This document shows positions 15,895-35,852 of a stretch of 64,000 nt of DNA, in pieces. The stretch is from Roseibium marinum. Lineage in GTDB: Bacteria; Pseudomonadota; Alphaproteobacteria; Rhizobiales; Stappiaceae. Numbering within the stretch: position 1 is the first letter of the stretch; each line of letters starts with the position of its first letter. The notes below the pieces were generated by a model. That model made no database searches and was not told where the DNA came from. It saw only the letters and a program-made list of their open reading frames with translations. The position numbers and the translations under genes are program-made. The DNA lies in assembly GCF_002906165.1 (NCBI RefSeq), contig NZ_PPCN01000001.1, positions 744,001-808,000 on the forward strand, read 5' to 3'.

Positions 15895-15931
15895 TGCACA
15901 CCCGCGCAGGTTTCCGGAAGAGGGGAAATTC

Positions 15932-18178: not shown

Positions 18179-18180
18179 CC

Positions 18181-19587: not shown

Positions 19588-19647
19588 CGATTCATGCCGC
19601 CGATTCCCGGCGGGAACAATAAATAACGTGTCGCAAAGGCCAGACCC

Positions 19648-20256: not shown

Positions 20257-20970
20257 CTATTTAGCTTCGCCCGGCTGGCCCGGTGGAACGGCCTTTGCCG
20301 CGCCCTGTCCGATCTGGGTCTGATAGCGGGCGAAATTGATTTCCACGATATCGATATGATCCCGCATGGCCTTGGCGGCTTCGTCCCGCTGGCCGCGCAG
20401 GATGGCGTTGACGATCCCCACATGTTCCGTCTGGGACTTCTTCAAACGTCCGAGCGTGCGGAACTGGGCCCGTCGAAACGGCGCGAGCCGCTGGCGTGTC
20501 TGCAGCGTCAGGGAGGCCAGATAGCCGTTGTGGCTGCCGCTGTAGATGGCGGAATGAAAGTCTTCATTGTGGACATGATAGCGCTGCGGGTCGCCCGAGC
20601 GCATGATCTCGGCAAGCTGTTCCAGCAGCGCCTGCAGGTCCCCGCGCTCCTCGCGGGTCATGTGAATGGCCGCCAGGCCTGCACAGGCCGCTTCCAGCTC
20701 CGCCATGGCAACGAACATTTCATGTAGCGATTCAGGCGAAAGCTCCTTGACGAAACATCCCCGGTGGGGCCGCAGTTCCACCAGCCCGCTCGTCTCCAGA
20801 AGCCGCAACGCTTCGCGGATGGGTGTTCTGGAAACGCCGAAGCGGCAGGCAAGGCCCTTTTCGTCAAGTTGCTGACCGGGTGTCAGCGCGCCTTCGACGA
20901 TCTCGTCGGCAAGCTGAAGGCGGATGTCTTCCGCACGGGTCCGGCTTGCGGCTTTCGGTTTTATGCGCAT
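20257..20970 (-). CDS. GntR/FCD-family transcriptional regulator
   Basis: A 237-residue regulator. The N-terminal winged helix (about 15-75) shows LACRFGVSRTPIREALRLLE, and the C-terminal all-helical FCD domain contains HNEDFHSAIYSGSHNGYL with His/Asp ligands for a metal and small carboxylate effector. The start is taken as the ATG at 20970 (MRIKPK); a TTG nine bases upstream is possible. Its position at the downstream end of the sigma-54 operon and convergent with the NMT1 operon makes it the likely local repressor. An imperfect inverted repeat (GCAAAGCCGG/ACCGGTTTGC, 21008-21031) lies in its leader. Confidence 0.9.
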   Translation of the reverse strand: MRIKPKAASRTRAEDIRLQLADEIVEGALTPGQQLDEKGLACRFGVSRTPIREALRLLETSGLVELRPHRGCFVKELSPESLHEMFVAMAELEAACAGLAAIHMTREERGDLQALLEQLAEIMRSGDPQRYHVHNEDFHSAIYSGSHNGYLASLTLQTRQRLAPFRRAQFRTLGRLKKSQTEHVGIVNAILRGQRDEAAKAMRDHIDIVEINFARYQTQIGQGAAKAVPPGQPGEAK

Positions 20971-21073
20971 CTCGTTCAATGCCGTCCTGCCGCCTGATCC
21001 GACCGTTGCAAAGCCGGATAGACCGGTTTGCCGGGCTGTTCAAGTCAAAGGTTGTCTGCGGGGCCGCTGACGA

Positions 21074-21457
21074 TCAGGTCTCGCTGATGACGCTGACATG
21101 GGCCGCCGCCACCTGCCAGCCGGCATCGGTTTTTATCCAGGTCTGCATCTGCCGGCCGACCTTGCCGGGTGCGGTGTCACGGTAAAACAGCGTCGAAGCC
21201 GTGGCGTAGGCCGTGCCATAGGTGGTGATCACGGTCCGCTCGAGCCGCCGCGCCAGATTTCCGTCATTGCGAGCGGAGCGGAACGCTGCGATCTCCCCAT
21301 AGCCGTAAAGGTTCTCTCCGCCGCCAAAGCGGATGGTGGTCGGCGCATCGAAAAACAGCCGGTCGAGCGTGGCGACATCGTTGGACACGAGTGCGTCTTC
21401 GTATTCGGCAAAGACCGTCTCGACCTCCGCCTTCACCGCTGGAATGTCGATGTCCAT
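21074..21457 (-). CDS. HpxZ/AtzH-like DUF3225 protein
   Basis: A 127-residue protein of the SnoaL-like DUF3225 family. The family contains HpxZ of the oxalurate pathway and, as I recall it, AtzH, the 1,3-dicarboxyurea hydrolase of Pseudomonas sp. ADP. It has the FAEYEDALVSNDVATLDRLF opening helix, the RFGGGENLYGYGEIAAFRSAR core and the AAHVSVISE final strand. It is the last gene of the long minus-strand operon, overlapping the upstream stop by one base (TGATG). With AtzG and AtzE homologues in the same operon it probably acts on a carboxylated urea/biuret intermediate. Confidence 0.85.
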   Translation of the reverse strand: MDIDIPAVKAEVETVFAEYEDALVSNDVATLDRLFFDAPTTIRFGGGENLYGYGEIAAFRSARNDGNLARRLERTVITTYGTAYATASTLFYRDTAPGKVGRQMQTWIKTDAGWQVAAAHVSVISET

Positions 21458-22227
21458 CAGGTCTTCATCCTTTGCGCGCGAATGCGGTCGTGCAATTTTC
21501 CAAGAAACGGAATGTCCCGGAACTGATCCGGTTGAACCACGTCCCAGGCAACCCCTTCGGGCTGCGGGAAAGGCGTATGCGTTTCGATCAGGCCCTGCTC
21601 GGTGGCGATCGCATGAAGCGCGCTGTCATGGGCCATCATCACCAGTTGGTCGTTGTCGACAACCTGGGAGGAATGAACCGTCGTTGTGATCGGCGTATCG
21701 GGTTTCAGCTTGGACAGCTCACGGAAAATTCCGAGTTCCAGGTCGGCAAATCCACCGCCCTTTCCGGTCCGTCCGCCCGCCCGGCTGACGGCAACGCAGC
21801 CGACGACGACGAAATCCAGCGGCTCCATGTCTTCGAACTCGACCGGTTCGCCATGTTCGACGAAGCCCTGCGAGGTGGCGGCCAGCTCGAACTGGATTCC
21901 GTTTTTCGCGAGTTTTTCCGGATCGAGCCGGACGAACGGGAAGGGTTTCAGCAGTTCCGGCACCGGCGCGTAGACGATCTTGCCGTCATAAAGCGCTCTG
22001 AGCCGGACCGGGATCTGCGGCGGGTCCGGATTGCACTTCACCGTCCGCGCCGTCCGCCATTGCGGCAGTCTGGAAAGGTGATAGGCCGCCGTGTCCGCGC
22101 CGACGAAATTCGGGATGCGGCTGCCGGCCGGACCGACGCTGATCCCGTTGTCTTCAAGACCGGTCCAGATATCCTGCCGGATCTTGTCCTTGTCCTGGTT
22201 GCGGCCTGCCCAGCGTGCTGTCTCCAT
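21457..22227 (-). CDS. 5-formyltetrahydrofolate cyclo-ligase-like protein
   Basis: A 256-residue protein of the MTHFS/5-FCL superfamily. The glycine-rich loop GRTGKGGGFADLELGIFRELS is the ATP/phosphate-binding signature. The N-terminal part (RNQDKDKIRQDIWTGLEDNG) is the typical opening helix, but the protein is longer than canonical YgfA. Relatives of this form occur beside amidases and may not act on folate. Here it sits between AtzE and the HpxZ/AtzH homologue, and shares a base with the latter's start. Formyl or formimino-group handling fits the formamidase upstream, but this is inference. Confidence 0.78.
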   Translation of the reverse strand: METARWAGRNQDKDKIRQDIWTGLEDNGISVGPAGSRIPNFVGADTAAYHLSRLPQWRTARTVKCNPDPPQIPVRLRALYDGKIVYAPVPELLKPFPFVRLDPEKLAKNGIQFELAATSQGFVEHGEPVEFEDMEPLDFVVVGCVAVSRAGGRTGKGGGFADLELGIFRELSKLKPDTPITTTVHSSQVVDNDQLVMMAHDSALHAIATEQGLIETHTPFPQPEGVAWDVVQPDQFRDIPFLGKLHDRIRAQRMKT

Positions 22228-22268
22228 GAGTTTTCCCTGTCTTCAAGGTTCGTTGTGTTCAATGCGTG

Positions 22269-23672
22269 CTAAATCCGGGCGACCGGCGCCGCGGCGATGC
22301 CGTCCCGTTCAAGCTGGTGGGCGACGCGCAGCGCGAGATCCTCCCGCCATGCGGGCGCGATCACCTGCACGCCGATCGGCAGATTTGATCCATCCGGCCA
22401 GACCGGAACGGCGACCACCGGCAACCCGATGAAGGAGATCGGCTGGGTGAAGAGACCGATATTCGGCCGCGCCGGCATGGTCTCGCCGCCGAGCGTGATG
22501 GCCCTGGTGCCCGAGGGAAGGGCGCTGAAGGGGGTCGCGGGCGCCAGGATGATATCCACATGCTCGAAGATCTTCCGCATCATGGCGCGGAACCAGCTGC
22601 GGAACCTTTGCGCCTGTTGAACCCAGACCGCGGGCACCATGGTCCCCGACAGGAAACGGTCGCGCGTGTCCGGATCGAAATCGTGGGGCCGGTGGAGGAT
22701 CCGCTCGAAATGCAGGTTCGCCCCTTCCGCGACCGTGATCACATAGGCCGCCGCGCGCGCCCGGGCAGCTTCCGGAATGTCGATTTCCGCCGATGCCCCG
22801 AGGGCCAAGGCGACCTTGTCGACCGCCGCCAGCGCTTCCGGTTCCAGCTTCTGACGGAAATATCCGCCGGCAATGGCGATCCGAAGACCGTTCGCGCCCT
22901 TGGCCAACTCCGCGCGCGTGGCAAGCACCGGCCTGTCCGACTGGGCCGGGTCGTTCTCGTCGAAGCCCTGCAGGACATCGAACACAAGCGAGAGGTCTTC
23001 CGCCGATCGCGCCAGCGGACCGAGGTGATCCAGGCTGCCGACGAAGGGATAGGTGCCATGGCGCGACAGGCGGCCATAGGTCGGTTTCAGACCGAAAAGG
23101 CCGCAAAAGGACGAAGGCACGCGGATGGAGCCGTTGGTGTCTGACCCGAGCGTGACCGGCACCATGCCGCTGGCGGCCGCCGCACCCGAGCCGGAAGACG
23201 AACCGCCCGACATCCGGGAAAGATCATGCGGGTTGAGGCAATTGCCGTCATGGGCGTTCTCGCCGGTAAAGTCATAGGCGTATTCGCCCATGTTCAGCCC
23301 GCCCACCAGCACGGCTCCGGCCCGGCTCAGGTTGCGGATCAGCGTCGCATCGGCTTTTGCCGGGGCGTTCTCAAGATTGATCTTCGAACCCGCGCGCGTG
23401 ACGACACCTTCCACATCGAAGAGGTTCTTGACCGCAAAGGGAACGCCGGTAAGCGGCAGGTTTGCGCCGCTGGCAACGGCCTCGTCGATCCCGGCCGCCT
23501 CGGTGAGGGCACGATCCGCCGTCACATCGGTAAAGGCGTTGAGGACAGGGTTCAGTTTCTCAATCTGCCAAAGGCAGTCCCGAACCACGTCCACCGCGCT
23601 TGTCGTGCCGGAGCGGACAGCTTCCGCGGTGGCCGACGCGGTCATTGCGGTGAGCTTGCTGGAAACCGTCAT
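22269..23672 (-). CDS. AtzE/HpxY-family amidase
   Basis: A 467-residue amidase-signature hydrolase. The Ser-cisSer-Lys triad is K82 (GVPFAVKNLFD), S158 (MSGGSSSGSG) and S182 (SDTNGSIRVPSSFCGLFGLKP). The 24-residue spacing between the two serines is the same as in AtzF. The best match is the AtzE family (1-carboxybiuret hydrolase subunit; HpxY in oxalurate catabolism). AtzE needs the small AtzG chain, and that gene overlaps it by four bases (ATGA), strongly supporting a heteromer. The products would feed the AtzH-like and allophanate hydrolase steps. Confidence 0.9.
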   Translation of the reverse strand: MTVSSKLTAMTASATAEAVRSGTTSAVDVVRDCLWQIEKLNPVLNAFTDVTADRALTEAAGIDEAVASGANLPLTGVPFAVKNLFDVEGVVTRAGSKINLENAPAKADATLIRNLSRAGAVLVGGLNMGEYAYDFTGENAHDGNCLNPHDLSRMSGGSSSGSGAAAASGMVPVTLGSDTNGSIRVPSSFCGLFGLKPTYGRLSRHGTYPFVGSLDHLGPLARSAEDLSLVFDVLQGFDENDPAQSDRPVLATRAELAKGANGLRIAIAGGYFRQKLEPEALAAVDKVALALGASAEIDIPEAARARAAAYVITVAEGANLHFERILHRPHDFDPDTRDRFLSGTMVPAVWVQQAQRFRSWFRAMMRKIFEHVDIILAPATPFSALPSGTRAITLGGETMPARPNIGLFTQPISFIGLPVVAVPVWPDGSNLPIGVQVIAPAWREDLALRVAHQLERDGIAAAPVARI

Positions 23673-23854
23673 GGTTCAAACACCGGCGCGGCTTCGACTT
23701 CCTCGTCCAGCGGGAAGGAAAGCACCAGTTCCGCCGCCTTCTGCGTGGCGGCGATATGCGCCTCGACCACCGGCCGCCAGTCGTCCTCGATGGTCAGTCC
23801 CATGACCTTTTCCATGTGCGCCACATGGGATTTCGCGTCAAACTTGCCGCTCAT
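23669..23854 (-). CDS. AtzG/HpxX-like DUF4089 small subunit
   Basis: A 61-residue acidic helical protein. The pattern HMEKVMGLTIEDDWRPVVEAH followed by a helix and a ...LDEEVEAAPVFEP end matches DUF4089, the AtzG/HpxX group that pairs with AtzE-type amidases and resembles the GatC subunit of GatCAB. A strong CGGAGG lies 5 nt before the ATG at 23854. Its stop overlaps the amidase start (ATGA), as in the cyanuric acid operon. It probably stabilises the amidase rather than catalysing a reaction. Confidence 0.88.
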   Translation of the reverse strand: MSGKFDAKSHVAHMEKVMGLTIEDDWRPVVEAHIAATQKAAELVLSFPLDEEVEAAPVFEP

Positions 23855-23869
23855 CGAACCTCCGGAGTG

Positions 23870-24535
23870 TTATTCATTGACTGCCGCCTTCAGCGCCTGA
23901 AGAGGCGCGGTCCAGCCGACAATACCGCCCTGGGCGCGGATCATGTCCAGCGTGGCCGCCTTGAATTGGGGAAAGTAGCTTTCCGTCGCCTCCTCGATCA
24001 ACAGGCACTCGAAGCCCCGGTCGTTGGCCTCGCGCATGGTGGTCTGCACGCAGACTTCCGTCGTCACTCCGGCAAAGATCAGGCTTCGGATTTCACGTTC
24101 CGCCAGGATCTCGCCAAGCGATGTCGCGTAGAAGGCGCCCTTGCCGGGTTTGTCGATGACGATCTCGCCTTCGGCCGGGAACAGATCGGGGATGATCTCG
24201 GCTCCCGGTTCTCCCCGGATCAGGATCCGCCCCATGGGGCCGTGATCGCCGATCCGCAGGGAAGGACTGCCGCGTTCGCGTTTGGCGGGAGGGCAGTCGC
24301 TCAGGTCGTGACGATGGGTTTCCCGCGTATGCACGACCGGCCAGCCTTGCGCCCGGAAGAGGTCGAGAAGGTCTCGTGCCGGGCCGATGGCGCGCTGCAT
24401 GTGGGAAATGTCGTTGCCGAGCGTTTCGCCGAACCCGCCCGGTTCGATGAAGTCGCGCTGCATGTCGATCACGATCAGCGCCGTGTTCGCCGGATCGAAG
24501 CTGAATTCGAACGGTTCCGCATCGACTGTGATCAT
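23870..24535 (-). CDS. Isochorismatase-family cysteine hydrolase, BiuH paralogue
   Basis: A 221-residue cysteine hydrolase. The catalytic triad is D24 ([10 protein letters not shown]), K129 ([10 protein letters not shown]) and C162 ([24 protein letters not shown]). It shares the D-K-C spacing (105 and 33 residues) of the BiuH-type gene at 26073, so the two are paralogues. It lacks the N-terminal DPYRWPYNG segment and several BiuH-typical residues, suggesting a different substrate such as a ureido acid or carbamoyl compound (RutB-like). Its ATG overlaps the stop of the ABC ATPase gene (ATGA) and 15 bp separate it from atzG. Confidence 0.88.
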
Positions 24536-26076
24536 CAGTGGTGTCCCGCCATTGCGTGTCCGATGGTCGCCCGGTCGGTCCGCGCCATCGGCGACTGGTA
24601 GGTGATCCGTCCTTCCGACATGACGGCCACCGTGTCGGCCAGTTCGAGAATTTCGTCGAGATCCTCCGAGACCAGAAGAATGGCGGCGCCCTTGTTGCGC
24701 TGGTCGATGATCTGCGCCCGGATTTCGGCCACCGAGGCGAAGTCGAGCCCGAAGCACGGATTGGCGACGATCAGCACGTCGACATCGCCGGAAAGCTCGC
24801 GCGCCAGAATCGCCCGTTGCACGTTGCCGCCGGACAGGTTCTCGATGGGCTCTTCGGTGGAGGGCGTCTTCACCCGGTAGGCGTCGATCAGGCCCCTGGC
24901 CTTCTTGCGCATCGGCACCGGCGACAGCCAGCCCCTGAACGGCGAGATCGGCGACTTGTCGAAGGTACGGAAGGCCATGTTCTCCGCGACGCTCATGCGC
25001 GGCACGGCGACGTTGCGCAGCGGCTCCTCGGAAAAGCCGAAGACCTTGAACCGGTCCATCTGCCGGCGCTCCGGTTCATATGGCCTGGTATCGATGAAGA
25101 TGCGGCCGTCCTTGAGGAGGCGCTGGCCGGAAAGCACTTCGATCAGCTCCGATTGGCCGTTGCCGGAGACCCCGGCGATGCCGAGGATCTCGCCGGCATG
25201 GATTTTCAGGCTGATCGCCTCGATGGCGGGCAGCTCCTCGTCGTCATCGGCGAAGAGGCCGGCCAGTTCCAGCTTGAGCTTCTTTTCCGGCTGCGCGGTG
25301 CGCGCCGCGCTTTCCCGGATGTCCGTTTCGCCGATCATCATCCGGCTCATCTCGGCGATGGAAAGGTCCTCGACCCGGCCGCTGCCGACAACCCGCCCGC
25401 GCCGCAAAACCGTGACATCATCGGCGTAGGCGGTCACTTCGCGGAATTTGTGGGTGATCATCAGTATGGTCAGGTCGCCCGCTTTTGTCATGCCGTGCAA
25501 CAGGCCGAGCATTTCATCGGCTTCATCCGGAGTAAGCACCGAGGTGGGTTCGTCCAGGATCAGAAAGCGCTGGTCGAGATAAAGCTGCTTGAGGATTTCC
25601 AGCTTCTGCTTTTCGCCGGCCGACAGGCCGGAGACCGGCACGTCCAGGGGCACCCTGAAAGGCGTGGTCTCCAGAAAGGCGTTGAGCGCCGTGCGTTCCT
25701 TGCCCCAGTCGATCACCGCCGGTGTGTCCACCCGGGCGATGACGAGGTTTTCCGCCGCCGTCAACGAGGGCACCAGCGTGAAATGCTGGTAGACCATGCC
25801 GATGCCGAGAGCGGTTGCGGCGCGCGGATTGGGAACATCGACCTGAACATCGTTGACCAGCATCTCGCCGCGTGTCGGCTGGTAGAAACCCATCATGCAT
25901 TTGACGAGCGTCGATTTGCCGGCGCCGTTTTCGCCGAGCAGGGCGTGAAATGAGCCGGACGCGACCCTGATCGACACATCGTCCAGCGCGGTCAGACCGC
26001 CGAAAATCTTGGTCATGCCGACGGTCTCGACACCGATGGCGCGCGTCGCCCCGGGCCTTGTTCGCGCAAGGCTCAT
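24535..26076 (-). CDS. BMP-type ABC transporter ATP-binding protein (tandem domains)
   Basis: A 513-residue double ATPase of the nucleoside/BMP (RfuB/NupA-like) and sugar group. The first domain has Walker A GENGAGKS at 48-55, C-loop [15 protein letters not shown] and Walker [12 protein letters not shown]. The second domain has the degenerate [16 protein letters not shown] loop and [16 protein letters not shown], usual for this class. The start is MSLARTRPG at 26076, which overlaps the stop of the BiuH gene. It serves the two permeases and BMP binding protein encoded upstream, although the formamidase and BiuH genes are inserted between them. Confidence 0.93.
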
Positions 26077-26804
26077 GACTGTTCCCCCTTGGGTGCGAGG
26101 CCCGCGAGCAACGCCTTGCTGTCGGCGACGGCACCGAAAACACCGCCCTGCATGGTGACCATCTTCAGCGCCGCCGCGTGGTTGCCCGCATCGGTCGCCG
26201 CGCAGCAATCGGAGAGGATCAGGCACTCGAAACCCCGGTCGTTGGCCTCGCGCATGGTGGTGTGCACGCAGACATCCGTCGTGATGCCGGTGAGGATCAG
26301 GTTCTCGATGCCGCGCGTGCGCAGAAGCAGCTCCAGGTCGGTTGCGCAGAAGGAGCCCTTGCCCGGCTTGTCGATGACCGGTTCGCCGGCAATCGGCGCA
26401 AGTTCGGGAATGATCTCCCAGCCGGGCTCTCCGCGCACCAGGATCCTGCCGCAGGGACCCGGATCGCCGATCCCCGCGCCGATCTGCCGTGAACGCCAGC
26501 GCTTGTTGGGAGGCAGGTCGGCGAGATCCGGCCGGTGGCCCTCGCGGGTGTGGATGATGTGATAGCCGGCCTGCCGCATGGCGGCCAGCACCCGGCCAAT
26601 CGGCGCGATGGGCGCGCGTGTCAGGGAGATATCGTAGCCCATGCTGTCGACATAGCCGCCCTTGCCGCAGAAGTCGGTCTGCATGTCGATGATGACGAGC
26701 GCGGTATTTTCCGAGCGCAGATCGCCATTATAGGGCCAGCGATAGGGATCGGCCGTAACCTGGCCTTCCGGAGCAGGGGGTGGGAGGTCTTCTGCCAGGC
26801 TCAT
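26073..26804 (-). CDS. biuH: Biuret hydrolase (BiuH-like isochorismatase-family)
   Basis: A 243-residue cysteine hydrolase. The N-terminal [12 protein letters not shown], the [20 protein letters not shown] loop and [14 protein letters not shown] segment closely match my memory of Rhizobium BiuH. The triad is D40, K146 and C179, which equals BiuH D36/K142/C175 with a constant offset of four. BiuH converts biuret to allophanate and ammonia in the cytoplasm; allophanate would then be used by the AtzF encoded at 32374-34185. Start [10 protein letters not shown] at 26804 is 6 bp after the formamidase stop. Assignment to biuret is by similarity only. Confidence 0.82.
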
Positions 26805-26809
26805 CGCCG

Positions 26810-27829
26810 TCACTCCGCCGCGTCGCTGAGATTCTTGTCGCCAAAGGCCCGTGTCGGACTTTCGAAGCCGCAGGAGGTGCCATCGGTGTGGATCACCTCG
26901 TCTTCCCAGGGCAGCCGGTATTTTCCGGCGGCAAGGTCGCTCATGTAGGTGTAGGGGCAGTCCTGCGCGCCGCCCTTGACCGCGACATAGCCGCGGTGGC
27001 CGAACTGATAGATGTTGTTTTCGACACCCCAGGTGATCCGCGCCTCGCGAACCAGGTCCGGGCGCACTTCCGCGGTGATGATCTCGTTCGCCCGGCCGCT
27101 GGTGCCGTGGGCCATGATTGTCCCGTCGAAATTGACGATCATGCCTTCGCCCATGGAATCGAACGTGCCGTCCGTGCCGCACATGCAAACATTGGCGGTC
27201 ACCATCAGGTTGCAGAAGGCGTTGGACTGGTTGGTGAATTTCCAGCTCTGCCGGATCGGCGCGGTATAGCCGGCGGTGCGGATCATGATCTCCGCGCCCT
27301 TGTAGGCGCATTCGCGGGCCATCTCGGGAAACATGCCGTCATGGCAGATGATCAGCGCCAGCTTGCAGCCGTTCGGACCGTCGATCACCGGGATGCCCTG
27401 ATCGCCCGGTTCCCAGGGCTCCACCGGCACCCAGGGGTGCATCTTGCGGTAATAGAGCTTCAGGTCGCCCGTGTTGTCGATGATGAGGCCGGAATTATAC
27501 GGCATGCCGCCGGGGTTGAATTCCATGATGGAGAAACAGCCCCAGATGTCGTTGTCGGCACAGGCCTTTTTGAAGGCAGCGACTTCCGGCCCGTCCAGAC
27601 GGCACATGATTTCAGGATTGATGTCCATCGACAGGCCGTGCAGCGCATATTCGGGAAACACCACCAGGTCCAGGGTGGACATGTTCCGCCGCGCCTTGGC
27701 GACCATGTCCACGATCACCTGCGTTTGTTCGGCAAGATCCTGGCGCGTGACGACAGTCGGAAGCTGCAACTGCACCATGCCGAGCACCACGCCGTTCGGG
27801 GATTTGTTCAGGCCTCCAAGTCCGCTCAT
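26810..27829 (-). CDS. Formamidase / aliphatic amidase (AmiF-like nitrilase superfamily)
   Basis: A 339-residue C-N hydrolase. The catalytic triad is E60 ([11 protein letters not shown]), K129 (LYYRKMHPW) and C162 ([12 protein letters not shown]). The sequence runs parallel to Helicobacter AmiF over its whole length, including [16 protein letters not shown] and [12 protein letters not shown] near the C-terminus. AmiF hydrolyses formamide to formate and ammonia; the close paralogue AmiE takes short aliphatic amides. It lies in the sigma-54 operon between the permease and biuH, so it probably releases ammonia from an amide generated by, or imported with, the main substrate. Confidence 0.9.
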
Positions 27830-27839
27830 GGTGACGTTC

Positions 27840-28766
27840 CTATTTGGTTATCGACAGCTCGCCCGGAGCGCCTTTCAGCGACCGTCTGGGCGAGGTGCTC
27901 GCGATCATGATCAAAAGGGTGAGGATGTAGGGCGCGGCGTTGAAGAAGTGATAGCCGCGCGAAATGCCGATGGATTGCAGGGCCGGTCCGAGCGCGCCGG
28001 CCGCGCCGAACAGCAACGCCGCCCAGAAGCAGTAGATCGGGTTCCATCTGGCGAAGATGACAAGGGCGACCGCCATCAGCCCCTGGCCGGACGACAGGCC
28101 CTCCGTCCAGCTTCCCGGATAATAGAGCGACAGGAAAGAACCGCCGATGCCGGCGAAGAAACCGCCGGCCATGGTGGACAGCAGGCGGACGCGGTCCACA
28201 TGGATGCCGAGCGCCAGGGCGGCGGGCGCGCTGTCGCCGGTGGTGCGGATGATCAGCCCGTATCGGGTGTTCTTCAGCGCCCACCACAGGAAGATCGCCA
28301 GCGCGATGCCGAGCAGGAAGAGCGGATTGATTTCCAGCGCCTGGCGCACGGCCGGATGATCGCTCCAGGTGCCGAAGGAGATCGACGGCAGGCGCGGCGC
28401 TGACGGCTGGATATAGGGCTTGCCGAAAAAGAAGGCGAGGCCGGTGCCGAACAGCATCATGGCGATGCCGATGGCAATATCGTTGACCTTCGGCAGTTTG
28501 CAGAGATAGCCGTGCAACGCGCCGAAGAGCGAGCCGCACAGTCCCGCGACCAGCACCCCGAGCCAGGGTGAGCCGGTATGATAGGAAATCGCGTAGCCGG
28601 ACATGGCGCCGAAGACGAGCGTGCCTTCCAGCCCCAGATTGATGCGTCCGGATTTTTCCGTCAGCATCTCGCCGAGACTGACGAAGAGAAACGGCGTCGA
28701 GACCCGGATGGCGCCGGCGAACATCGCCAGGAGGACGGTCATCAGACCGGGATCGTCTCCCATCAT
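27840..28766 (-). CDS. BMP-type ABC transporter permease 2 (NupQ-like)
   Basis: A 308-residue inner-membrane permease of the BPD_transp_2 family with 8-10 hydrophobic helices. The family motif region is ALGIHVDRVRLLSTMAGGFFAGIGGSFLS, and a TEKSGRINLGLEGTLVFGAM segment at the N-terminus is characteristic of the nucleoside/BMP group. The start at 28766 overlaps the previous permease stop (ATGA). The stop is 10 bp from the formamidase start. Together with permease 1 it forms the heterodimeric channel. Confidence 0.93.
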   Translation of the reverse strand: MMGDDPGLMTVLLAMFAGAIRVSTPFLFVSLGEMLTEKSGRINLGLEGTLVFGAMSGYAISYHTGSPWLGVLVAGLCGSLFGALHGYLCKLPKVNDIAIGIAMMLFGTGLAFFFGKPYIQPSAPRLPSISFGTWSDHPAVRQALEINPLFLLGIALAIFLWWALKNTRYGLIIRTTGDSAPAALALGIHVDRVRLLSTMAGGFFAGIGGSFLSLYYPGSWTEGLSSGQGLMAVALVIFARWNPIYCFWAALLFGAAGALGPALQSIGISRGYHFFNAAPYILTLLIMIASTSPRRSLKGAPGELSITK

Positions 28767-29875
28767 GCGGCTCCTTTCGATCTGAAGAAGGACAGGCGGC
28801 CGTAGAAGGTCTCGGAGACCAGGATCACCAGAAAGAGAAGCCCCTGAAGCACCAGCACCGTCGCGTCCGGAAGATCCATGCGCCGCTGGACCAGCCCGCC
28901 CGAGGCGGCGATCCCGCCCAGGAAAATCGCGACCGGCACGATGACGAGCGGATTGTGCCGCGCCAGGAAAGAAACCAGGATGCCGGTAAAGCCGTAGCCG
29001 GCGATCAGCGAGGCATTGGCCTTGCCATGGATGGCGGCGACCTCGAAAAATCCGGCAAGGCCCGCGCAGGCCCCGGCGATGGCGCAGGAGATCACCATCA
29101 GCTTGCCGACGGGAAGACCCTGCGCCTGCGCCGCCCGCAGATTGCCCCCGGCGATCTGGGCGGCAAAGCCGAATGTCGTCCGGTTCATCAAGAGATAAAG
29201 GGCGCAGCACAGGAGAATGCCGATCAGCAGGCCCCAATGGACATCCGTGCCGGGAATGACGCCGATCATGTTGTCCGCGCCGAGCGGTTTGGTGGAGGGC
29301 TTGTTCGGATCCGAAGGATCGCGCAAGGCGCCTTCGACGAAGAAGTTCAGGATCGACACGGCGATATAGAACATCAAGAGGGACGCGATGGTTTCGTTGA
29401 CGCCGCGATAATGGCGCAGCGCGCCGACGATGCCGATCCAGATGCCGCCCGCCATCATGGCGGCGATCGCCATCACGCCGAGCAGCAGGTAGGCGGGCGC
29501 CCAGTCGATCATCGGGATGGCGATTGTCGCGGCGGCGAATCCGCCGAGAACCAGCGCACCTTCGCCGCCGATGATGACAAGCCCGAGACGTGCGGGAATG
29601 GCGACGCAGAGCGCGGTGAAGATCAGCGGCGCCGAGCGGACCAGCGTGTTCTGCCAGGAAAAGCTGGTGCCGAAACCGCCGCGCCAGACCAGCGCGAAGA
29701 AATCGGCCGGCGATTTGCCTACAAGCAGCAGGAAGATCGAAAACAGCACGCCTGAGACGATGAGCGCCAGAAGCGGAATGACGACAAATTCCGCCGACCG
29801 CCGGAAGCGGTCGAAAAGCTCGCTCAAGAAGCCGGACTGAACCGTGAGGCCCGGGGCTTCGGTGGTCTCTGCCAT
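28763..29875 (-). CDS. BMP-type ABC transporter permease 1 (NupP-like)
   Basis: A 370-residue permease with an extended cytoplasmic N-terminus (residues 1-30) and about nine helices. Hallmarks are IPARLGLVIIGGEGALVLGGFAAA and the ANASLIAGYGFTGILVSFLARHNPL segment typical of nucleoside-type BMP permeases. It lies 122 bp after the binding-protein gene and overlaps permease 2. The substrates of this transporter class are purine and pyrimidine nucleosides, riboflavin, or related N-heterocycles. Confidence 0.93.
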   Translation of the reverse strand: MAETTEAPGLTVQSGFLSELFDRFRRSAEFVVIPLLALIVSGVLFSIFLLLVGKSPADFFALVWRGGFGTSFSWQNTLVRSAPLIFTALCVAIPARLGLVIIGGEGALVLGGFAAATIAIPMIDWAPAYLLLGVMAIAAMMAGGIWIGIVGALRHYRGVNETIASLLMFYIAVSILNFFVEGALRDPSDPNKPSTKPLGADNMIGVIPGTDVHWGLLIGILLCCALYLLMNRTTFGFAAQIAGGNLRAAQAQGLPVGKLMVISCAIAGACAGLAGFFEVAAIHGKANASLIAGYGFTGILVSFLARHNPLVIVPVAIFLGGIAASGGLVQRRMDLPDATVLVLQGLLFLVILVSETFYGRLSFFRSKGAA

Positions 29876-29997
29876 GTCCTGTTCCTCGTTTTCCGCGTTC
29901 GCATGAAATCAGCGATGCCGGTCAGGCACGCGGCCACTCAGAAGAGTTTTTTCCCCGGACGGATGCCCGGGGAAACTGCGGGATCGAAGCGGGACGA

Positions 29998-31110
29998 TCA
30001 GGTGATCGAACCGGTGACACCCTCGATCAGATAGTCGGTCTGGTCGAGGGACGGCTCGTAATTGTCGAAGCTCGCACCGGCCGCGAGCAGCGGCGTCCCG
30101 TCCTGTTTGTTGATCGGCCCGACGAAGATCGGCTTGCCGGCCGTGACGTCGGCGCGCGCGGCGTCAGCCGCGGCGATGGCGGCCTCCGTCGCACCGGCGC
30201 CGTAAGGCGTGTTGCGGACGAAATCGACATCGAAACCGCCGCCGGTGAAGTTCGGCAGAGGCTCTCCCTCGGCCAGATCGGCCGCGAACATCTTGTAGAT
30301 GGTTTCCCACTTGTACTCGGCGCCGGTGATGAAGCCCTTCGGAGCGAGCGGTGCCTGGGAAGCGTTGTGGCCGCAGCATTTGACACCGCGGGACTCGGCC
30401 GTCTCGATCACCACCTTCGGGCCGTCGACATGACAGGTGAGAACATCGCAACCGGCATCGACCAGCGCGTTGGCGGCTTCCGCTTCACGGACCGGCATCG
30501 ACCATTCACCGGTAAAGATGACCTGGACCGTGGCATCGGGGTTCACCTTGCGCGCGCCGAGCAGGAAGGAGTTGATGTTGCGCAAAACCGTCCCGATCGG
30601 CTTGGCGGCTACGAAACCGAGCTTGTTGCTGGTGGTGGACAGGCCTGCCGCCACGGCGTCGACGTAGTGCGCCTGATCGAGATAACCGAAATAGCTGCCG
30701 GCGTTTTTCGGATCGCCTTCGGTCCACAGCGGCGCGGCATGGCGGAACTCGACATCCGGATACTTCGCGGCAAGGTCCAGCACGAAAGGTTTGTAGTAGC
30801 CGAAGGAGGTCGCGAAAATCAGGTTCGCGCCGTCCAGGTTGATCATGGATTCCATCGATTTCGCGGCCGCGATGGTCTCCGGGACATTCTCCTCTTCGAC
30901 CACGGTGACGCCCGGAACGTCCTTGAGTGCCGCCGCTGCGACGGCATGCGCCTGGTTCCAGCCGAAGTCGTCCCTGGGACCGACATAAACGATGCCGACG
31001 GTGAGGTTGCCGGCCTGCGCCAGCCGTGACAGGCTGGCCGAAGACAGCAGGGCGAGACCTGCGGCAGATGACTGCAGCAGTGTCCGGCGAGAAAGTTCGA
31101 ATTTCGACAT
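29998..31110 (-). CDS. BMP-family ABC transporter substrate-binding protein, Tat-exported
   Basis: A 370-residue periplasmic protein. The N-terminus carries a twin-arginine signal (SRRTLLQ at residues 7-13) ending near RLAQAG. The mature start LTVGIVYVGPRDDFGWNQAH and ATSFGYYKPFVLDLAAKYPD are BMP (PF02608) hallmarks. In alphaproteobacteria such proteins bind purines, uric acid or related compounds. It is the first gene of the 11-gene operon, 60 bp downstream of a probable sigma-54 promoter start. A Tat signal is common for this family here. Confidence 0.93.
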   Translation of the reverse strand: MSKFELSRRTLLQSSAAGLALLSSASLSRLAQAGNLTVGIVYVGPRDDFGWNQAHAVAAAALKDVPGVTVVEEENVPETIAAAKSMESMINLDGANLIFATSFGYYKPFVLDLAAKYPDVEFRHAAPLWTEGDPKNAGSYFGYLDQAHYVDAVAAGLSTTSNKLGFVAAKPIGTVLRNINSFLLGARKVNPDATVQVIFTGEWSMPVREAEAANALVDAGCDVLTCHVDGPKVVIETAESRGVKCCGHNASQAPLAPKGFITGAEYKWETIYKMFAADLAEGEPLPNFTGGGFDVDFVRNTPYGAGATEAAIAAADAARADVTAGKPIFVGPINKQDGTPLLAAGASFDNYEPSLDQTDYLIEGVTGSIT

Positions 31111-31180
31111 AAAGTCCTCCGTTATTACGGCAGCGCCACCAAAAGCCCGCCAATCTCCGTCTGGCCTCTGGTTTAATTTA

Positions 31181-31195
31181 GCAAGGCGCGTGCCA
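31181..31195 (-). promoter_or_regulatory. Sigma-54 (-24/-12) promoter of the BMP/BiuH/AtzGE operon
   Basis: On the minus strand the sequence reads TGGCACGCGCCTTGC, then TA. This is an exact match to the RpoN consensus TGGCACG-N4-TTGCW. The -24 element is 31190-31195 and the -12 element is 31181-31184. The predicted start is near 31170, about 60 nt before the binding-protein ATG at 31110. rpoN itself is at 47320-48885. Confidence 0.85.
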
Positions 31196-31296: not shown

Positions 31297-31314
31297 ATGA
31301 TTGTATGCAATCAT
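31297..31314. promoter_or_regulatory. Inverted repeat ATGATTG-N4-CAATCAT upstream of the sigma-54 promoter
   Basis: Perfect 7-bp arms around TATG. Its core, TTGTATGCAA, resembles the TTGTATACAA-type operators of FCD GntR proteins. It lies about 102-119 bp upstream of the -24 element, a distance also suitable for an enhancer-type activator. The surrounding 31200-31380 gap is AT-rich and holds no gene. Confidence 0.5.
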
Positions 31315-31380
31315 CATTTTAGTGATTAAATTTTATGCGTATTTTTCTATATGGCTTTTTCATAGGCAATGAATGTCCGG

Positions 31381-32349
31381 CTACAGGCTTGCGGTCTTTA
31401 CCGGTTCGTAGCTCGCATCCAGCCTGGATTTCAGGTACTCGGCGCCTGAGACCGGCGCATATTTCGCTGTCCCGCCCGCTTCAATGCAGCCCGGCATGCA
31501 GGCGACTTCCGCATCCGGATTGGAATCCAGGAAAAAGGCGATGGAATAGCGTTCCAGACCGCTGGAATTGACCACGCGGTGCGGCGTTGAAACATAGACG
31601 TCGTTGGTCCAGCGCATCAGGCAATCGCCGATATTGCAGACGAAAGCACCTTCGATGGTCGGCGCTTTCAGCCACACGCCGTCCCGGCGTCGGACTTCAA
31701 GGCCGCCGACCGCGTCCGGCAGCAGAATGGTCAGGTTGCCGTAATCGGTGTGAGTCCCCGCGCCGATCTGGCCTTCTTCCGCATTGGCCGGTTGCGGCGG
31801 GTAGTGCAACAGGCGCAGGGTCGCCATCGGAGCGTCCAACATGCTTTCGAAAAAATCGTCATCCGCGCCGAGATCGACAGCGAGCGCCCTGTGAATCCGC
31901 CGGCTGAGCACCCATGCGGCGTTGTAATAGGCAAGCAGGGTTTCCTTCCAGCCCGGCAGGTCCGGCCATTGATTGACCGCCCTGAACGGTTCGCCACTGA
32001 GAATGCGCGGATCGCCGGCCTCAAGATCGAGCCCGATGTTGAAGGCTTCCTTCAGGTCCGACGGCTTGGTCGGGTCGAGGTTTTCGCCCTTCATCGGCAC
32101 ATAACCGCGATTGGTTTTGAAAAAGTTCTTCGTCAGAGGCATCTTCGCCTCTATCGGCTGGGCGAACAGCGTGCGCGCGGCAGAAAATGTGTCATCGATC
32201 AGGCTTTGCGGAATGCCATGGTTGTTCACATAGAAAAAACCGGTGTCGCGTGCCGCCCGTCCAAGCGCGGCGGCAGTCTTTTCGAGGCCGCCGGGTTTGC
32301 CGGAGATCAGCGGTTCCAGATCGATGACGGGAAGGTCCGTATCGGACAT
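31381..32349 (-). CDS. Isopenicillin N synthase-family 2OG-Fe(II) dioxygenase
   Basis: A 322-residue non-haem iron oxygenase. The facial triad is H200 and D202 (GAGTHTDYGNLTIL) with H257 (STPHRVVNS), and the co-substrate-binding Arg is R267 (ERYSIAFF). The DIOX_N domain opens the protein (LPVIDLEPL, TGFFYVNNHGIP). Family members hydroxylate or desaturate diverse small molecules; in bacteria many are tied to N-compound catabolism (for example ureidoacrylate- or xanthine-type oxidation). It is the last gene of the Dpp/atzF operon, 24 bp after atzF. The substrate is unknown. Confidence 0.9.
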   Translation of the reverse strand: MSDTDLPVIDLEPLISGKPGGLEKTAAALGRAARDTGFFYVNNHGIPQSLIDDTFSAARTLFAQPIEAKMPLTKNFFKTNRGYVPMKGENLDPTKPSDLKEAFNIGLDLEAGDPRILSGEPFRAVNQWPDLPGWKETLLAYYNAAWVLSRRIHRALAVDLGADDDFFESMLDAPMATLRLLHYPPQPANAEEGQIGAGTHTDYGNLTILLPDAVGGLEVRRRDGVWLKAPTIEGAFVCNIGDCLMRWTNDVYVSTPHRVVNSSGLERYSIAFFLDSNPDAEVACMPGCIEAGGTAKYAPVSGAEYLKSRLDASYEPVKTASL

Positions 32350-32373: not shown

Positions 32374-34185
32374 TTATTCGGCGGCGGCAATCGAACCACT
32401 GTCGGTAAAGCTGCGCCAGCTTTTAAGGTGCGTGATGTTCTCCGCGCCGCGAACGCCAGCGGTTTCGCAGATGAAACCCTTGACGGTCCGCCCGTCGGCA
32501 AGCTCCAGCGTTCCAAGGCCCAGCGGCGACGGAATGCCTGCCAGAAAGCTGCCGGTCTGGGTCTTCGGCATGGCCCAGATTTCCAGCTCGATCTCGCCGC
32601 CGTTTGCGGTTTCGCCGCGTACGAGACCGGGACGCTTCGGCGGTCCGCCCGCCAGTGCGTAAAGGCAATAGGCATCGCTCGTGCGTGCGGTCTCCAGAAA
32701 GCGTGCGCCGCGGGAAGTGAGTTCATGGTTGAGCGCCATGCCGGACATATGCGCGCCGCAGACGGCAAGCGCGATTTCGTCCGCTCCGGCGGCAGGGACC
32801 AAGGTGGCGGGGGCCAGCAGCGTCCAGCCGGTCGCGCCCAGCTTGTGAACGCCGAGTTGCTCCAGCCGGCTGCCGATGGAAGCCAGGAATGAGTCCCTGC
32901 CGGCCGCCGCCAGCAGGGTCACGCTGCCCGGACGCCCGTCGCTGCGCGGGGCGACCGGCACGGCAAGGCCGCACATGTCGAGCAGGTTGACGAAATTGGT
33001 GTAGGTGCCATTGCGCGAATTCGGTCCGATGGGATCGGCTTCCAGATCCGCGACGCTGTAAAAGGTCGGCATGGTCGGCACGCACAGCAGATCGAGCGAT
33101 GCGAGCACAGGTTCGGTTTTCCGGGCAAGTTCCTTCAGGCGGTAAATGCCACGAAAGGCGTCGGTCGCGCTCAGGTCCAGGGCGGCCTCGACGACCTTGC
33201 GGGTCACCGGGTGGACGGCCTCGGGCGCGTCGCGCATCAGGTCCTCGATCACGGAGTGCCGTTCGGCGACCCAGGCGCCTTCATAAAGCATGTGCGCAAC
33301 GTCGTAGAAGGGTGTGAAATCCACTTCGACGATCTCGGCCCCCTCCGCTTCGAGAAGCGCAACGCTGTCGCTGAAGGATTTCGCCTGGGCCTCGTCGCCG
33401 CAAAACTCGATGGATCCGGCATCGGGAATGCCGATGCGGAGTTTCGCAGGCACAGGGGAGAGATCGGGCGTTGGCACCACCTTCGAATAGGCGTCCGCCG
33501 CATCATATCCGGCCGCGCACTGAAACACGCAATAGGCGTCCTCCACGGTCAGCGCGAAGATCGAGATCGTGTCCAGAGTCCGGCAGGCGGGCACCACGCC
33601 GGAGGCGGAGAGGGCGCCGAGGGTCGGCTTGAGGCCGACGATATTGTTAAGGGCGCCGGGGACCCGGCCGGAGCCTGCCGTGTCCGTACCGAGGGAAAAG
33701 CTGACGATGCCGTGCGCGACGGCAACGGCGGAGCCCGACGACGATCCGCCCGGGACGATGTCCGGATCGACCGCGTTCCTGGGGGGCTGATAGGGAGAGC
33801 GGACCCCGACGAGACCGGTCGCGAACTGGTCGAGATTGGTCTTGCCGATGACAAGTGCGCCCGCCTCTTTCAGCCTTCCGACCACGAACGCGTCTTCTTC
33901 GGCCAGGTACTCATATGCCGGACAGGCGGCGGTTGTCGGTTTCCCGCCCGCGTCGATGTTGTCCTTGATGACGAAGGGAATGCCCCAGAGCGGCCTGGCC
34001 GGATCGTAGGCACCGAGGGCGGCGGCGGTCTCCAGCACTTCCTGCTTGTCGAAAAGGTAGATGAAAATCCCCGGATCATCGATGCTGTCGATCCGCCGGT
34101 AGACTTCCTCGACAATGTCCTTCGCGCTCGTACCGCTCTTGTAGGCGGCCGCAAGGGAAGGAAGCGTGAAGGGGAGATCGAACAT
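32374..34185 (-). CDS. atzF: Allophanate hydrolase (AtzF)
   Basis: A 603-residue enzyme that splits allophanate into two NH3 and two CO2. Residues 1-440 form an amidase-signature domain with K74 (PFVIKDNIDAGG), S148 (PGGSSSGS) and S172 (TDTAGSGRVPG). The spacing 74 and 24 is the same as in Pseudomonas AtzF (K91, S165, S189, from memory). A C-terminal domain (about 460-600, with SRGARFLETARTSDAYCLYAL) is the allophanate_hydrolase_C domain. The ATG at 34185 has GAGGAAT 5 nt upstream; an ATG at 34212 that overlaps the previous stop has no such site. This is the final step for carbon-free N release from biuret-like compounds. Confidence 0.93.
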   Translation of the reverse strand: MFDLPFTLPSLAAAYKSGTSAKDIVEEVYRRIDSIDDPGIFIYLFDKQEVLETAAALGAYDPARPLWGIPFVIKDNIDAGGKPTTAACPAYEYLAEEDAFVVGRLKEAGALVIGKTNLDQFATGLVGVRSPYQPPRNAVDPDIVPGGSSSGSAVAVAHGIVSFSLGTDTAGSGRVPGALNNIVGLKPTLGALSASGVVPACRTLDTISIFALTVEDAYCVFQCAAGYDAADAYSKVVPTPDLSPVPAKLRIGIPDAGSIEFCGDEAQAKSFSDSVALLEAEGAEIVEVDFTPFYDVAHMLYEGAWVAERHSVIEDLMRDAPEAVHPVTRKVVEAALDLSATDAFRGIYRLKELARKTEPVLASLDLLCVPTMPTFYSVADLEADPIGPNSRNGTYTNFVNLLDMCGLAVPVAPRSDGRPGSVTLLAAAGRDSFLASIGSRLEQLGVHKLGATGWTLLAPATLVPAAGADEIALAVCGAHMSGMALNHELTSRGARFLETARTSDAYCLYALAGGPPKRPGLVRGETANGGEIELEIWAMPKTQTGSFLAGIPSPLGLGTLELADGRTVKGFICETAGVRGAENITHLKSWRSFTDSGSIAAAE

Positions 34186-34208
34186 TTTATTCCTCGTTAT
34201 TCCTGGTG

Positions 34209-35852
34209 TCATTCAGCGGCGGATGTTGCCAGAACAGGCGGTTTGGGCGCGGCGGCCAGCAATTGCCGCGTATAGGGATGAGCCGGTGTTTCCATGACCT
34301 TTGAAGTCGGTCCCTGCTCGACGATCTCACCGTCTTTCATCACGATGACATGGTCGCAGAGCAGCCGGACGACGTGAAGGTCATGGCTCACGAAAAGATA
34401 GCTGATCCCGAGCTTTGCCCGCAGGTCGACCAGCAGGTTGAGCACGAGAGCCTGGATCGAAACATCGAGTGCGGCGGTTGGCTCGTCGAGGATCAGGAAT
34501 TGCGGATCGACGGCGATGGCCCTGGCAATTCCGACACGCGCTTTCTGGCCGCCCGAAAGCTGGTGCGGGAACCGCTCCAGCAGCGGGCGGGGCAGGCCCA
34601 CAAGATCCGCCAGTTCCTCCACCCGCGCCTTCAGGTCCAGGCGGGAAAGGTTGGTCAGCCGCGCCAGCGGCTCGCTGATCGAGTGACGGGCCGTATGCCT
34701 GGGATTGAAACTGTCGGTCGCGTCCTGGAACACCATCTGGATGGCGGCCCGGCGGGGATCGCGCGCGAAACCGGCGGCGGGTGTCAGTGCGAGATCCTCG
34801 CCGTTGAAGAGGATTTCGCCTTCGGTCGGATCGCTCAGGCGCACCAGTATCGACGAGGTCGTCGACTTGCCGCAGCCGGACTCCCCGACCAGACCGACGC
34901 TCTCGCCCTTGTTGACGGTAAAACTGATCCCCTTGACCGCGTGCACGGGACCGGATTTGCCCCGGTAGGTCTTGGTGAGGTTGCGCACCTCCAGAAGCGG
35001 CGTGTCCGATTTCGGCAGGTCCGGCTCCGGCGTGCGCTGCTCGGCCGGCAGGAGCGCGCGCACGCAAGTCCCTTCGCGCGGCGTGGCGTCGACCAGCTTG
35101 CGCGTATAGGCGTGCCTGGGTGCGGCAAACATCTGTCCGGGCGCGCCCTCCTCGACGATCCCGCCGTCCTTCATCACCACGATACGGTCACAGTACTGGG
35201 CCGCGAGGCCGAGATCGTGGGTGATCACCATGGCGCTCATGCCACGCTCGGCGATCAGGTCGGCGATCAGCTCCATCACCGCCTTCTGGGTGGTGATGTC
35301 GAGGCCGGTGGTCGGTTCGTCGGCAATCAGCAGCCTGGGATCGCAGGCAAGGGCGAGCGCGATGACGATGCGCTGGCACATGCCGCCGGAAAGCTCGAAC
35401 GGGTAGGCGTTGTAGCGCGCCTCCGCGTCGTTGATCCTGACGGCCTCGAGCGCCTTGATCGCTTCGGCCTTCGCCGTCGACCGCGTTGCCTTGGCGTGCC
35501 GCCGCAGCACGTCCTCGATCTGCTGTCCGACCTTGCGGATCGGGTTGAGGGCGGCGCGCGGGTTCTGGAAGACCATCGAGATTTCCCGGCCGCGCAGGTC
35601 CCGCATGGTGCTTTCCTTCACGCTCCTGAGATCCATGCCGTCATAGGTCAGCGCCCCGCCGGTAATGCGGCCGTTGCTTTCTAGAAGGCGCATGAGCGCA
35701 TAGGAGGTGACGGATTTGCCGGAGCCGGATTCGCCGACAACGCCAAGGATTTCACCCTTTTTCAGCTCCAGCGAAACGCCGCGCACCGCCTGGACCTCGC
35801 CGCGCCGGGTCTGGAAGGAGACCTTCAGGTCGGTGATGGACAGCAGGCTCAT
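34209..35852 (-). CDS. Fused dipeptide/oligopeptide-type ABC transporter ATPase (DppD-DppF)
   Basis: A 547-residue protein with two complete ATPase domains joined in one chain. Domain 1 has Walker A GESGSGKS at 40-47 and the oligopeptide-family tail YTRKLVDATP. Domain 2 has GESGCGKSTTS, LSGGQKARVGIARAI and YTRQLLAAAP. The domain 1 C-loop reads LSGGMCQR, with Cys in place of the usual Arg, which is unusual though not in an ATP-contacting position. ATG at 35852 overlaps the permease stop (ATGA). It powers the Dpp-type importer of this operon. Confidence 0.92.
   Translation of the reverse strand: MSLLSITDLKVSFQTRRGEVQAVRGVSLELKKGEILGVVGESGSGKSVTSYALMRLLESNGRITGGALTYDGMDLRSVKESTMRDLRGREISMVFQNPRAALNPIRKVGQQIEDVLRRHAKATRSTAKAEAIKALEAVRINDAEARYNAYPFELSGGMCQRIVIALALACDPRLLIADEPTTGLDITTQKAVMELIADLIAERGMSAMVITHDLGLAAQYCDRIVVMKDGGIVEEGAPGQMFAAPRHAYTRKLVDATPREGTCVRALLPAEQRTPEPDLPKSDTPLLEVRNLTKTYRGKSGPVHAVKGISFTVNKGESVGLVGESGCGKSTTSSILVRLSDPTEGEILFNGEDLALTPAAGFARDPRRAAIQMVFQDATDSFNPRHTARHSISEPLARLTNLSRLDLKARVEELADLVGLPRPLLERFPHQLSGGQKARVGIARAIAVDPQFLILDEPTAALDVSIQALVLNLLVDLRAKLGISYLFVSHDLHVVRLLCDHVIVMKDGEIVEQGPTSKVMETPAHPYTRQLLAAAPKPPVLATSAAE

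Follow-up and report, generated by a model that had tools for sequence, protein, structure and literature searches.

Which compound is served by an operon that couples a BMP-type transporter to a row of amide hydrolases, and how is it controlled? This question is raised by eleven genes on the minus strand, from 31110 to 21074, of a 64,000-nt stretch of Roseibium marinum DNA (contig NZ_PPCN01000001.1, positions 744,001 to 808,000; this whole stretch is called the window). The original prediction for this locus had described an eleven-gene operon behind a sigma-54 promoter that scavenges amide nitrogen under nitrogen limitation, from an unidentified amidated N-heterocycle or a biuret derivative. 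Our sequence comparisons suggest that the operon very probably takes up and mineralises triuret and biuret, chain-like relatives of urea, under control of sigma-54 and probably of NtrC.

Gene content of the operon

The genes of the window were assigned to families by Pfam and NCBIfam profile scans. The family calls agreed with those made before, and the eleven genes stand in the predicted order. They are listed here from the first gene of the operon to the last, followed by three flanking genes (ABC, ATP-binding cassette; FTHFCL, 5-formyltetrahydrofolate cyclo-ligase paralogue; 2OG, 2-oxoglutarate):

29998..31110, minus strand, BMP-family substrate-binding protein (PF02608)
28763..29875, minus strand, ABC permease 1 (PF02653)
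27840..28766, minus strand, ABC permease 2 (PF02653)
26810..27829, minus strand, formamidase (NF009803 576 bits, cut-off 406; PDB 5g3o 358 bits)
26073..26804, minus strand, predicted biuret hydrolase BiuH (NF050097 430 bits, cut-off 370; PDB 6azo 418 bits; BiuH-type residues)
24535..26076, minus strand, ABC ATPase with two ABC domains (PF00005)
23870..24535, minus strand, predicted triuret hydrolase TrtA (PDB 6xix 300 bits; 6/6 diagnostic residues)
23669..23854, minus strand, AtzG-like subunit (PF13318)
22269..23672, minus strand, predicted 1-carboxybiuret hydrolase AtzE (693 bits, cut-off 461; match to AtzE structure)
21457..22227, minus strand, FTHFCL (PF01812; TIGR02727 below cut-off; cyclo-ligase fold)
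21074..21457, minus strand, AtzH of the HpxZ family, Arg66 type (HpxZ/AtzH 179 bits, cut-off 135; pocket residues)
20257..20979, minus strand, GntR/FCD regulator, 94 bp after AtzH
32374..34212, minus strand, predicted allophanate hydrolase AtzF, just upstream in the operon (TIGR02713 764 bits)
31381..32349, minus strand, 2OG-Fe(II) oxygenase, a recurring neighbour just upstream (profile scans; recurrence in relatives)

The earlier gene list was right for its eleven members, but it ended before AtzF and the 2OG oxygenase on the upstream side and before the GntR-FCD regulator on the downstream side. It had also stated that most junctions overlap, which was too strong: a scripted count found overlaps of 4, 4, 1, 4 and 1 bp at five of the ten junctions and gaps of 122, 10, 5, 15 and 41 bp at the other five.

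Two hydrolases with diagnostic residues for triuret and biuret

The best solved structure for the second cysteine hydrolase of the operon is 6xix (300 bits), the triuret hydrolase of Herbaspirillum (PMC7948467), whereas the best BiuH structure reached 218 bits. All six residues that separate TrtA from BiuH according to the same source (F35, N41, A134, E160, Y187 and I205) are present in the window protein, which also carries the catalytic triad D24-K129-C162, and at these positions the neighbouring hydrolase agrees with the BiuH consensus; it also scores above the BiuH family cut-off. When TrtA and BiuH copies taken at identity cut-offs were surveyed, ten TrtA positions were uniform in 144 copies (146 loci) except for position 134, and ten BiuH positions were uniform in 124 copies except for position 151 (3 copies), with one copy uncovered at the first position. 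By its sequence the protein encoded at 23870-24535 is the triuret hydrolase TrtA; the structure match and the residues permit this more exact name in place of the previous designation, 'cysteine hydrolase'. The AtzE of the window matched an AtzE structure with 481 bits, the next structure being GatA with 247 bits; it passed its family cut-off and has its AtzG partner gene beside it.

We regard the locus as a triuret/biuret operon because TrtA and BiuH both have their residues and AtzF is encoded just upstream. An unidentified substrate or an N-heterocycle is not supported, as both hydrolases show residues diagnostic of enzymes whose substrates are known. The term 'biuret derivative' was correct in kind, the predicted compound being triuret, and the scavenging of amide nitrogen is supported.

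Judging from the published enzymology of relatives, each step of a complete pathway would have a gene here. The BMP-type ABC transporter would import polyureas. TrtA is described to make 1-carboxybiuret from triuret (PMC7948467) and would release ammonia in this step; AtzG-AtzE would convert 1-carboxybiuret to 1,3-dicarboxyurea and ammonia, and AtzH would decarboxylate the latter to allophanate, both as published for AtzEG and AtzH (PMC6219798). Carboxybiuret may also decarboxylate spontaneously to biuret, which BiuH would cut to allophanate along with imported biuret. Allophanate would finally be split to ammonia and CO2 by AtzF, and the formamidase may contribute nitrogen from formamide.

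Conservation of the operon in the family and the order

We found FTHFCL in 19 of 87 genomes of the family, the own genome included. The original prediction had staked itself on a gene order conserved in related genomes, and the eleven genes indeed occur in the same order in 17 of the 18 other FTHFCL-bearing genomes, all 18 of which were fetched. The exception is G059 (L187/L037), where a deletion joins an opp-type binding-protein gene (at about residue 183) to FTHFCL (at about residue 39); the genes between them are removed, by natural loss or by an assembly fault. At the level of the order, 397 genomes were searched with FTHFCL and 33 matched, 3 of them from the window's family; 20 of the other 30 were fetched, and 18 of these 20 loci are triuret operons. 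The ring-opening enzyme AtzD is encoded next to the ATPase gene in 9 of these 18.

A predicted sigma-54 promoter and further sites upstream of the operon

Three kinds of predicted regulatory sites lie ahead of the BMP gene:

31181..31195, minus strand, sigma-54 -24/-12 element TGGCACG-CGCC-TTGC, predicted transcription start near 31169
31298..31313, no strand, palindrome TGATTGCATACAATCA, candidate GntR operator (upstream alignment and motif counts)
31323-31339 and 31352-31368, no strand, two weak NtrC-like boxes with 2 mismatches each to TGNYTAWWWWWTARNCA

The RpoN-type site stands where it had been predicted, 70 bp before the ATG of the BMP gene. Within the window, matches to the motif with at most 1 mismatch were not significantly enriched (6 seen, 4.5 expected). 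In the whole genome of 6.06 Mb, TGGCACG-N4-TTGC occurs exactly 11 times, compared to 2 times for the reversed pattern. Six of the ten other exact sites stand 38-84 bp ahead of an open reading frame (ORF), and the genes behind them, named from reading the translations and not from a search, are HesB-like, FixA/ETF-like, a ferredoxin (in an apparent nif cluster), a TRAP binding protein, glutamine-synthetase-like and flgE. Of the remaining four sites, one overlaps the start of an ORF, two have no ORF start found behind them, and one is separated from an ABC ATPase gene by 287 bp that include a short ORF. The site 287 bp ahead of this other ABC ATPase gene (G000:C7:16742-16756, L184) is identical to that of the window in all 15 bases. 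The apparent nif cluster (G000:C1:320000-336000, L180) contains four exact sites and suggests that the organism is a nitrogen fixer.

TGGCAY-N5-TTGC was found exact in all 18 upstream regions of the family (window included), in which the flanking sequence has diverged, and in all 17 order-level BMP upstream regions from other families, at -71 to -96, with 0 hits for the reverse-complement control; the BMP upstream region was covered for 17 of the 18 order-level triuret operons. Where the BMP protein is at least 64% identical, 25 of 29 upstream regions have an exact site (18 of the 29 are the window and its family), compared to 16 of 76 other regions; the control gave 0 in all 105 regions. Operons lacking the site include most beta- and gammaproteobacterial ones as well as alphaproteobacterial cupin operons with a LysR gene (L048, L049, L131, L133, L148, L160, L163, L170 and L171). 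The sequence evidence supports the view that a sigma-54 promoter precedes the operon, as the original prediction had proposed.

The palindrome TGNYTAWWWWWTARNCA, at 2 mismatches or fewer, was found in 15 of the 18 family upstream regions, from which it had itself been derived (300 shuffles: mean 0.37, largest 3), and it was therefore looked for elsewhere. In the order set, 9 of 17 regions contain an NtrC-like box, 3 of them overlapping the GntR site (200 shuffles: mean 0.06, largest 1). The own genome contains 8 distinct sites at 1 mismatch or fewer, compared to 2 for the reversed pattern. One stands ahead of the P-II gene glnB, which has glnA as its neighbour and a sigma-54-like site as well; another precedes nifR3, ntrB and the activator gene ntrC. 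Three more are found upstream of a second amt gene, of a urea-type ABC binding protein and of a further ABC binding protein, the last with a sigma-54 site at a distance of 102 bp. A sixth, accompanied by a sigma-54-like site, separates a deaminase gene from a set of ABC genes (gene names other than P-II and the activators come from reading translations). We consider TGNYTAWWWWWTARNCA to be probably an NtrC box, and the predicted control by nitrogen limitation to be probable. For the atz genes of Pseudomonas sp. ADP, sigma-54/NtrC-linked control has been described.

A second, substrate-specific control would probably be added by GntR. All 4 family members that have a GntR gene beside the operon contain the palindrome TTGYATRCAA, and none of the 14 others does; the numbers are 15 of 15 and 1 of 2 for the order loci, and 4 of 8 and 1 of 3 for the named loci. 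It is a candidate GntR operator, and the binding of GntR here, like that of NtrC, is predicted.

A variable slot after TrtA and residue 66 of AtzH

In order to see how far the gene set extends, we surveyed plasmids, a phylum sample (37 of 398 genomes matched at E 1e-60 or better and 20 regions were fetched; the weakest of the 37 matches may be BiuH and not TrtA) and named contigs (the best 80 of 576 matches, so that the counts are no census). A core of BMP, two permeases, an optional formamidase, BiuH, an optional AtzD, ATPase and TrtA recurs and is followed by a variable part. Of 126 loci collected by way of TrtA or of the window's FTHFCL, with the family of the window included, 101 have the complete core. 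With gene presence counted anywhere in the fetched stretch, the slot after TrtA holds an AtzH-like gene without AtzE or FTHFCL in 28 cores, AtzE, FTHFCL and AtzH in 23, Cupin_7 in 21, AtzE and AtzH in 16, FTHFCL and AtzH in 3, AtzE without AtzH in 3 and none of these in 7. Cupin and AtzH never occur together. Formamidase is present in 54 of the 101 cores, AtzF in 65 and AtzD in 9.

Among cupin-type loci, formamidase and AtzF replace each other (L043, L044, L083 and L177 versus L081, L084-L086, L088 and L089), and formamidase was considered as a stand-in for AtzF because some Rhizobium-like loci carry just one of the two. The exchange is weaker over all 83 cores outside the window's family, of which 20 have formamidase only, 33 AtzF only, 16 both and 14 neither (short flanks). 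We also noted 77 Escherichia plasmid records that match TrtA at E 1e-60 or better, none of them among the best 60.

The AtzH of the window keeps all nine pocket residues listed in PMC6219798 (Y22, R46, R63, R66, R73, F94, R96, Q106 and Q108; the offset of 3 between the numbering of the paper and the alignment was set by hand). Arg66 goes along with AtzE: in 79 loci we counted 43 with both, 1 with Arg66 and no AtzE, 2 with another residue and AtzE, and 33 with another residue or a gap and no AtzE (Fisher 1e-18, kinship aside). This table holds some repeat rows (L087 and L155 are identical, L250 is likely a repeat of L152), and the gap at residue 66 in L115 was counted as not Arg66. In a fresh set of 18 loci, all 14 with AtzE have Arg66 and 3 of the 4 without AtzE do not. 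Of the 97 loci taken together, 57 have both, 36 have neither or a gap and 4 are exceptions: L174 and L176 (AtzE, V66), L255 (R66, no AtzE in the fetched region, on which alone it was judged) and L107 (R66, no AtzE, on a contig that ends near AtzH). On the AtzH tree Arg66 needs only 5 changes, 2 of them on firm branches, and a pair test cannot reach significance; with so few independent changes the dependence of Arg66 on AtzE is therefore not proved.

Elsewhere residue 66 is C, A, L, V, S, F or Q, and both AtzH-like genes that follow TrtA in Herbaspirillum have Cys66. We infer that the AtzH-like protein after TrtA is a candidate for TrtB. One arginine fewer in the pocket would be accounted for by carboxybiuret having one carboxylate less than dicarboxyurea. 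As a tentative proposal, to which we give somewhat less than an even chance, the slot may be a swappable module for carboxybiuret: AtzH with Arg66 would take 1,3-dicarboxyurea together with AtzGE, the C/A/L/V/S/F/Q66 versions (TrtB) would decarboxylate 1-carboxybiuret, Cupin_7 would do the same elsewhere, and FTHFCL would be a further, hitherto undescribed enzyme of N-carboxyurea chemistry. If true, this would explain atzG-atzE-atzH clusters without atzD, as TrtA would supply their substrate.

The cyclo-ligase paralogue and neighbouring genes

The predicted structure of FTHFCL (predicted local distance difference test score 87.5) has the 5-formyltetrahydrofolate cyclo-ligase fold, with Foldseek matches to 2jcb, 1ydm, 1wkc and 3hy6 (E 1e-8 to 3e-7), and the protein stays below the equivalog cut-off (TIGR02727, 23.7 bits versus 84.9). 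In a weak alignment with Thermus 1wkc (E 0.37), the FYD motif of the latter, whose tyrosine matters for folate, reads FAD. FTHFCL always stands beside AtzH in the order-level triuret operons. Outside triuret operons we found it in 2 of the 20 fetched order loci (L254 and L256, within the fetched stretch) and in the plasmid loci L038-L040. Two of these, L039 and L040, have it next to a BMP transporter that shares 61-71% identity with the one in the window, and neither BiuH nor TrtA was found within the stretch fetched for them; in L040, FTHFCL and the transporter adjoin a thiamin gene cluster.

Three roles for FTHFCL were considered and rejected. A role as TrtB was dismissed, as FTHFCL is not among the genes found at the Herbaspirillum TrtA loci (L113, L137) and is absent from 75 of 101 complete cores. 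Nor is it a partner of AtzE only, as it occurs with AtzH and without AtzE in L041, L151, L158, L255, L260, L261 and L262. COG0212 paralogues are linked to thiamin, which together with the thiamin genes at L040 prompted the idea of thiamin-pyrimidine salvage; this was dismissed as the main role because 18 of 20 fetched order-level orthologues sit in triuret operons.

Beside the operon, on the plus strand at 15085-20244, the window contains an ABC transporter, a cytosine-deaminase-like gene (PRK07583, 621 bits), a GlcD-like flavin adenine dinucleotide (FAD) oxidase and flavodoxin-like genes. Genes resembling these are found again next to the triuret operons of L028, L030, L083, L176 and L179.

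Alternative explanations

Several observations weigh against triuret and biuret mineralisation under sigma-54 and NtrC. The two routes from carboxybiuret, via AtzGE and via BiuH, are redundant, and FTHFCL and the 2OG oxygenase are left unexplained by the triuret scheme. For NtrC, the boxes of the window itself are weak, the pattern was counted in the same 18 sequences that defined it, just 3 of 11 named close-clade operons have a box at 2 mismatches or fewer, and 2 of the 8 sites in the own genome have no clear nitrogen gene alongside. In Burkholderia cenocepacia, growth on biuret was better and not worse in an ntrC mutant (PMC5491218), which speaks against activation by NtrC in that organism; it belongs to a different lineage, and few of the betaproteobacterial operons surveyed have a sigma-54 site.

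The locus could instead be a cyanuric acid operon that has lost AtzD and survives as a biuret/triuret remnant. Pseudomonas sp. ADP is known to degrade cyanurate by way of AtzGEH (PMC6219798), and AtzD does occur in half of the order-level triuret operons with FTHFCL, as described above. We consider this unlikely, as AtzD is absent from all 18 complete cores of the family, window included, and a TrtA with all key residues speaks against a remnant; a search with PF09663 gave no AtzD match in the own genome, which counts for little because the control genomes were silent too. Another reading, close to the original prediction, is that the operon is for a different ureide or N-heterocycle (oxalurate, a urate product or a pyrimidine), fed in by FTHFCL, the 2OG oxygenase and the cytosine-deaminase-like enzyme. 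The names HpxX and HpxZ are also used in oxalurate catabolism, the 2OG oxygenase is found with 19 of the 26 complete cores that contain FTHFCL (18 of these 26 belong to the window's family), and cytosine-deaminase-like, FAD-oxidase or flavodoxin-like genes recur at the five loci named above. The diagnostic residues of two hydrolases for triuret and biuret, an AtzE nearest to the AtzE structure and an AtzF upstream make this quite improbable. That formamide is a main substrate of a mixed small-amide scavenging operon, with triuret as a side one, seems very unlikely to us: formamidase accompanies 54 of the 101 complete cores and is missing in the other 47, and it is BiuH, TrtA and the transporter that define the core, although the cores were chosen by those genes.

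Meaning of the operon and comparison with known systems

Triuret occurs as an impurity in urea fertiliser and is also formed when urate is oxidised (PMC7948467). The operon described here would tie its breakdown to nitrogen-starvation control across a bacterial order. TrtA would be a possible source of carboxybiuret for AtzG-AtzE-AtzH clusters without AtzD, which the 2018 work on AtzH (PMC6219798) had left as an open question, and the AtzH/TrtB family would offer directly testable predictions at a single residue. The analysis also highlights a cyclo-ligase paralogue and a 2OG oxygenase as neighbours of ureide genes.

The statement that no operon of this composition has been described holds only narrowly, for the full form: our literature searches, which covered open-licence papers, gave none with formamidase, AtzG-AtzE-FTHFCL-AtzH and sigma-54 control, nor anything on sigma-54/NtrC control of a triuret operon, on its formamidase or on the exchange of AtzGE, cupin and AtzH. 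It does not hold for the core, which is widespread and already in print: the clustering of TrtA, BiuH and AtzF (PMC7948467) and its co-location with the BMP-type transporter bmpA-nupABC (PMC12625717) have both been published. The latter clusters, trtA-biuH-trtB-atzF with bmpA-nupABC and gntR in ammonia oxidisers, share the transporter type and the hydrolases with the window, and the part of that source available to us does not report AtzGE, formamidase or a 5-formyltetrahydrofolate gene with them.

The Rhizobium plasmid cluster with atzD and biuH (R. leguminosarum, PMC5806882; R. beringeri, L043) has the BMP transporter, formamidase, BiuH, ATPase and TrtA in the order of the window. R. beringeri differs by an AtzD between BiuH and ATPase and by a Cupin_7 after TrtA that replaces AtzGE/FTHFCL/AtzH, and has no AtzF within the fetched 18.6 kb. 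With atzDGEHF of Pseudomonas sp. ADP (PMC6219798) the window shares the order of AtzG, AtzE and AtzH and a nearby AtzF. It differs in lacking AtzD, so that carboxybiuret would come from TrtA, in having BiuH as well, and in the positions of FTHFCL (between AtzE and AtzH) and AtzF (upstream). The triuret pathway of Herbaspirillum (TrtA, TrtB, BiuH and AtzF; PMC7948467) shares TrtA, BiuH and AtzF with the window, and the locus of Herbaspirillum sp. RV1423 (L137) comes close to its order with AtzF-BMP-permease-permease-BiuH-ATPase-TrtA-AtzH-like-GntR. In contrast to Herbaspirillum, the window also encodes formamidase, AtzG-AtzE and FTHFCL, its AtzH has Arg66 and not Cys66 and, unlike in L137, the operon stands behind a strict sigma-54 site.

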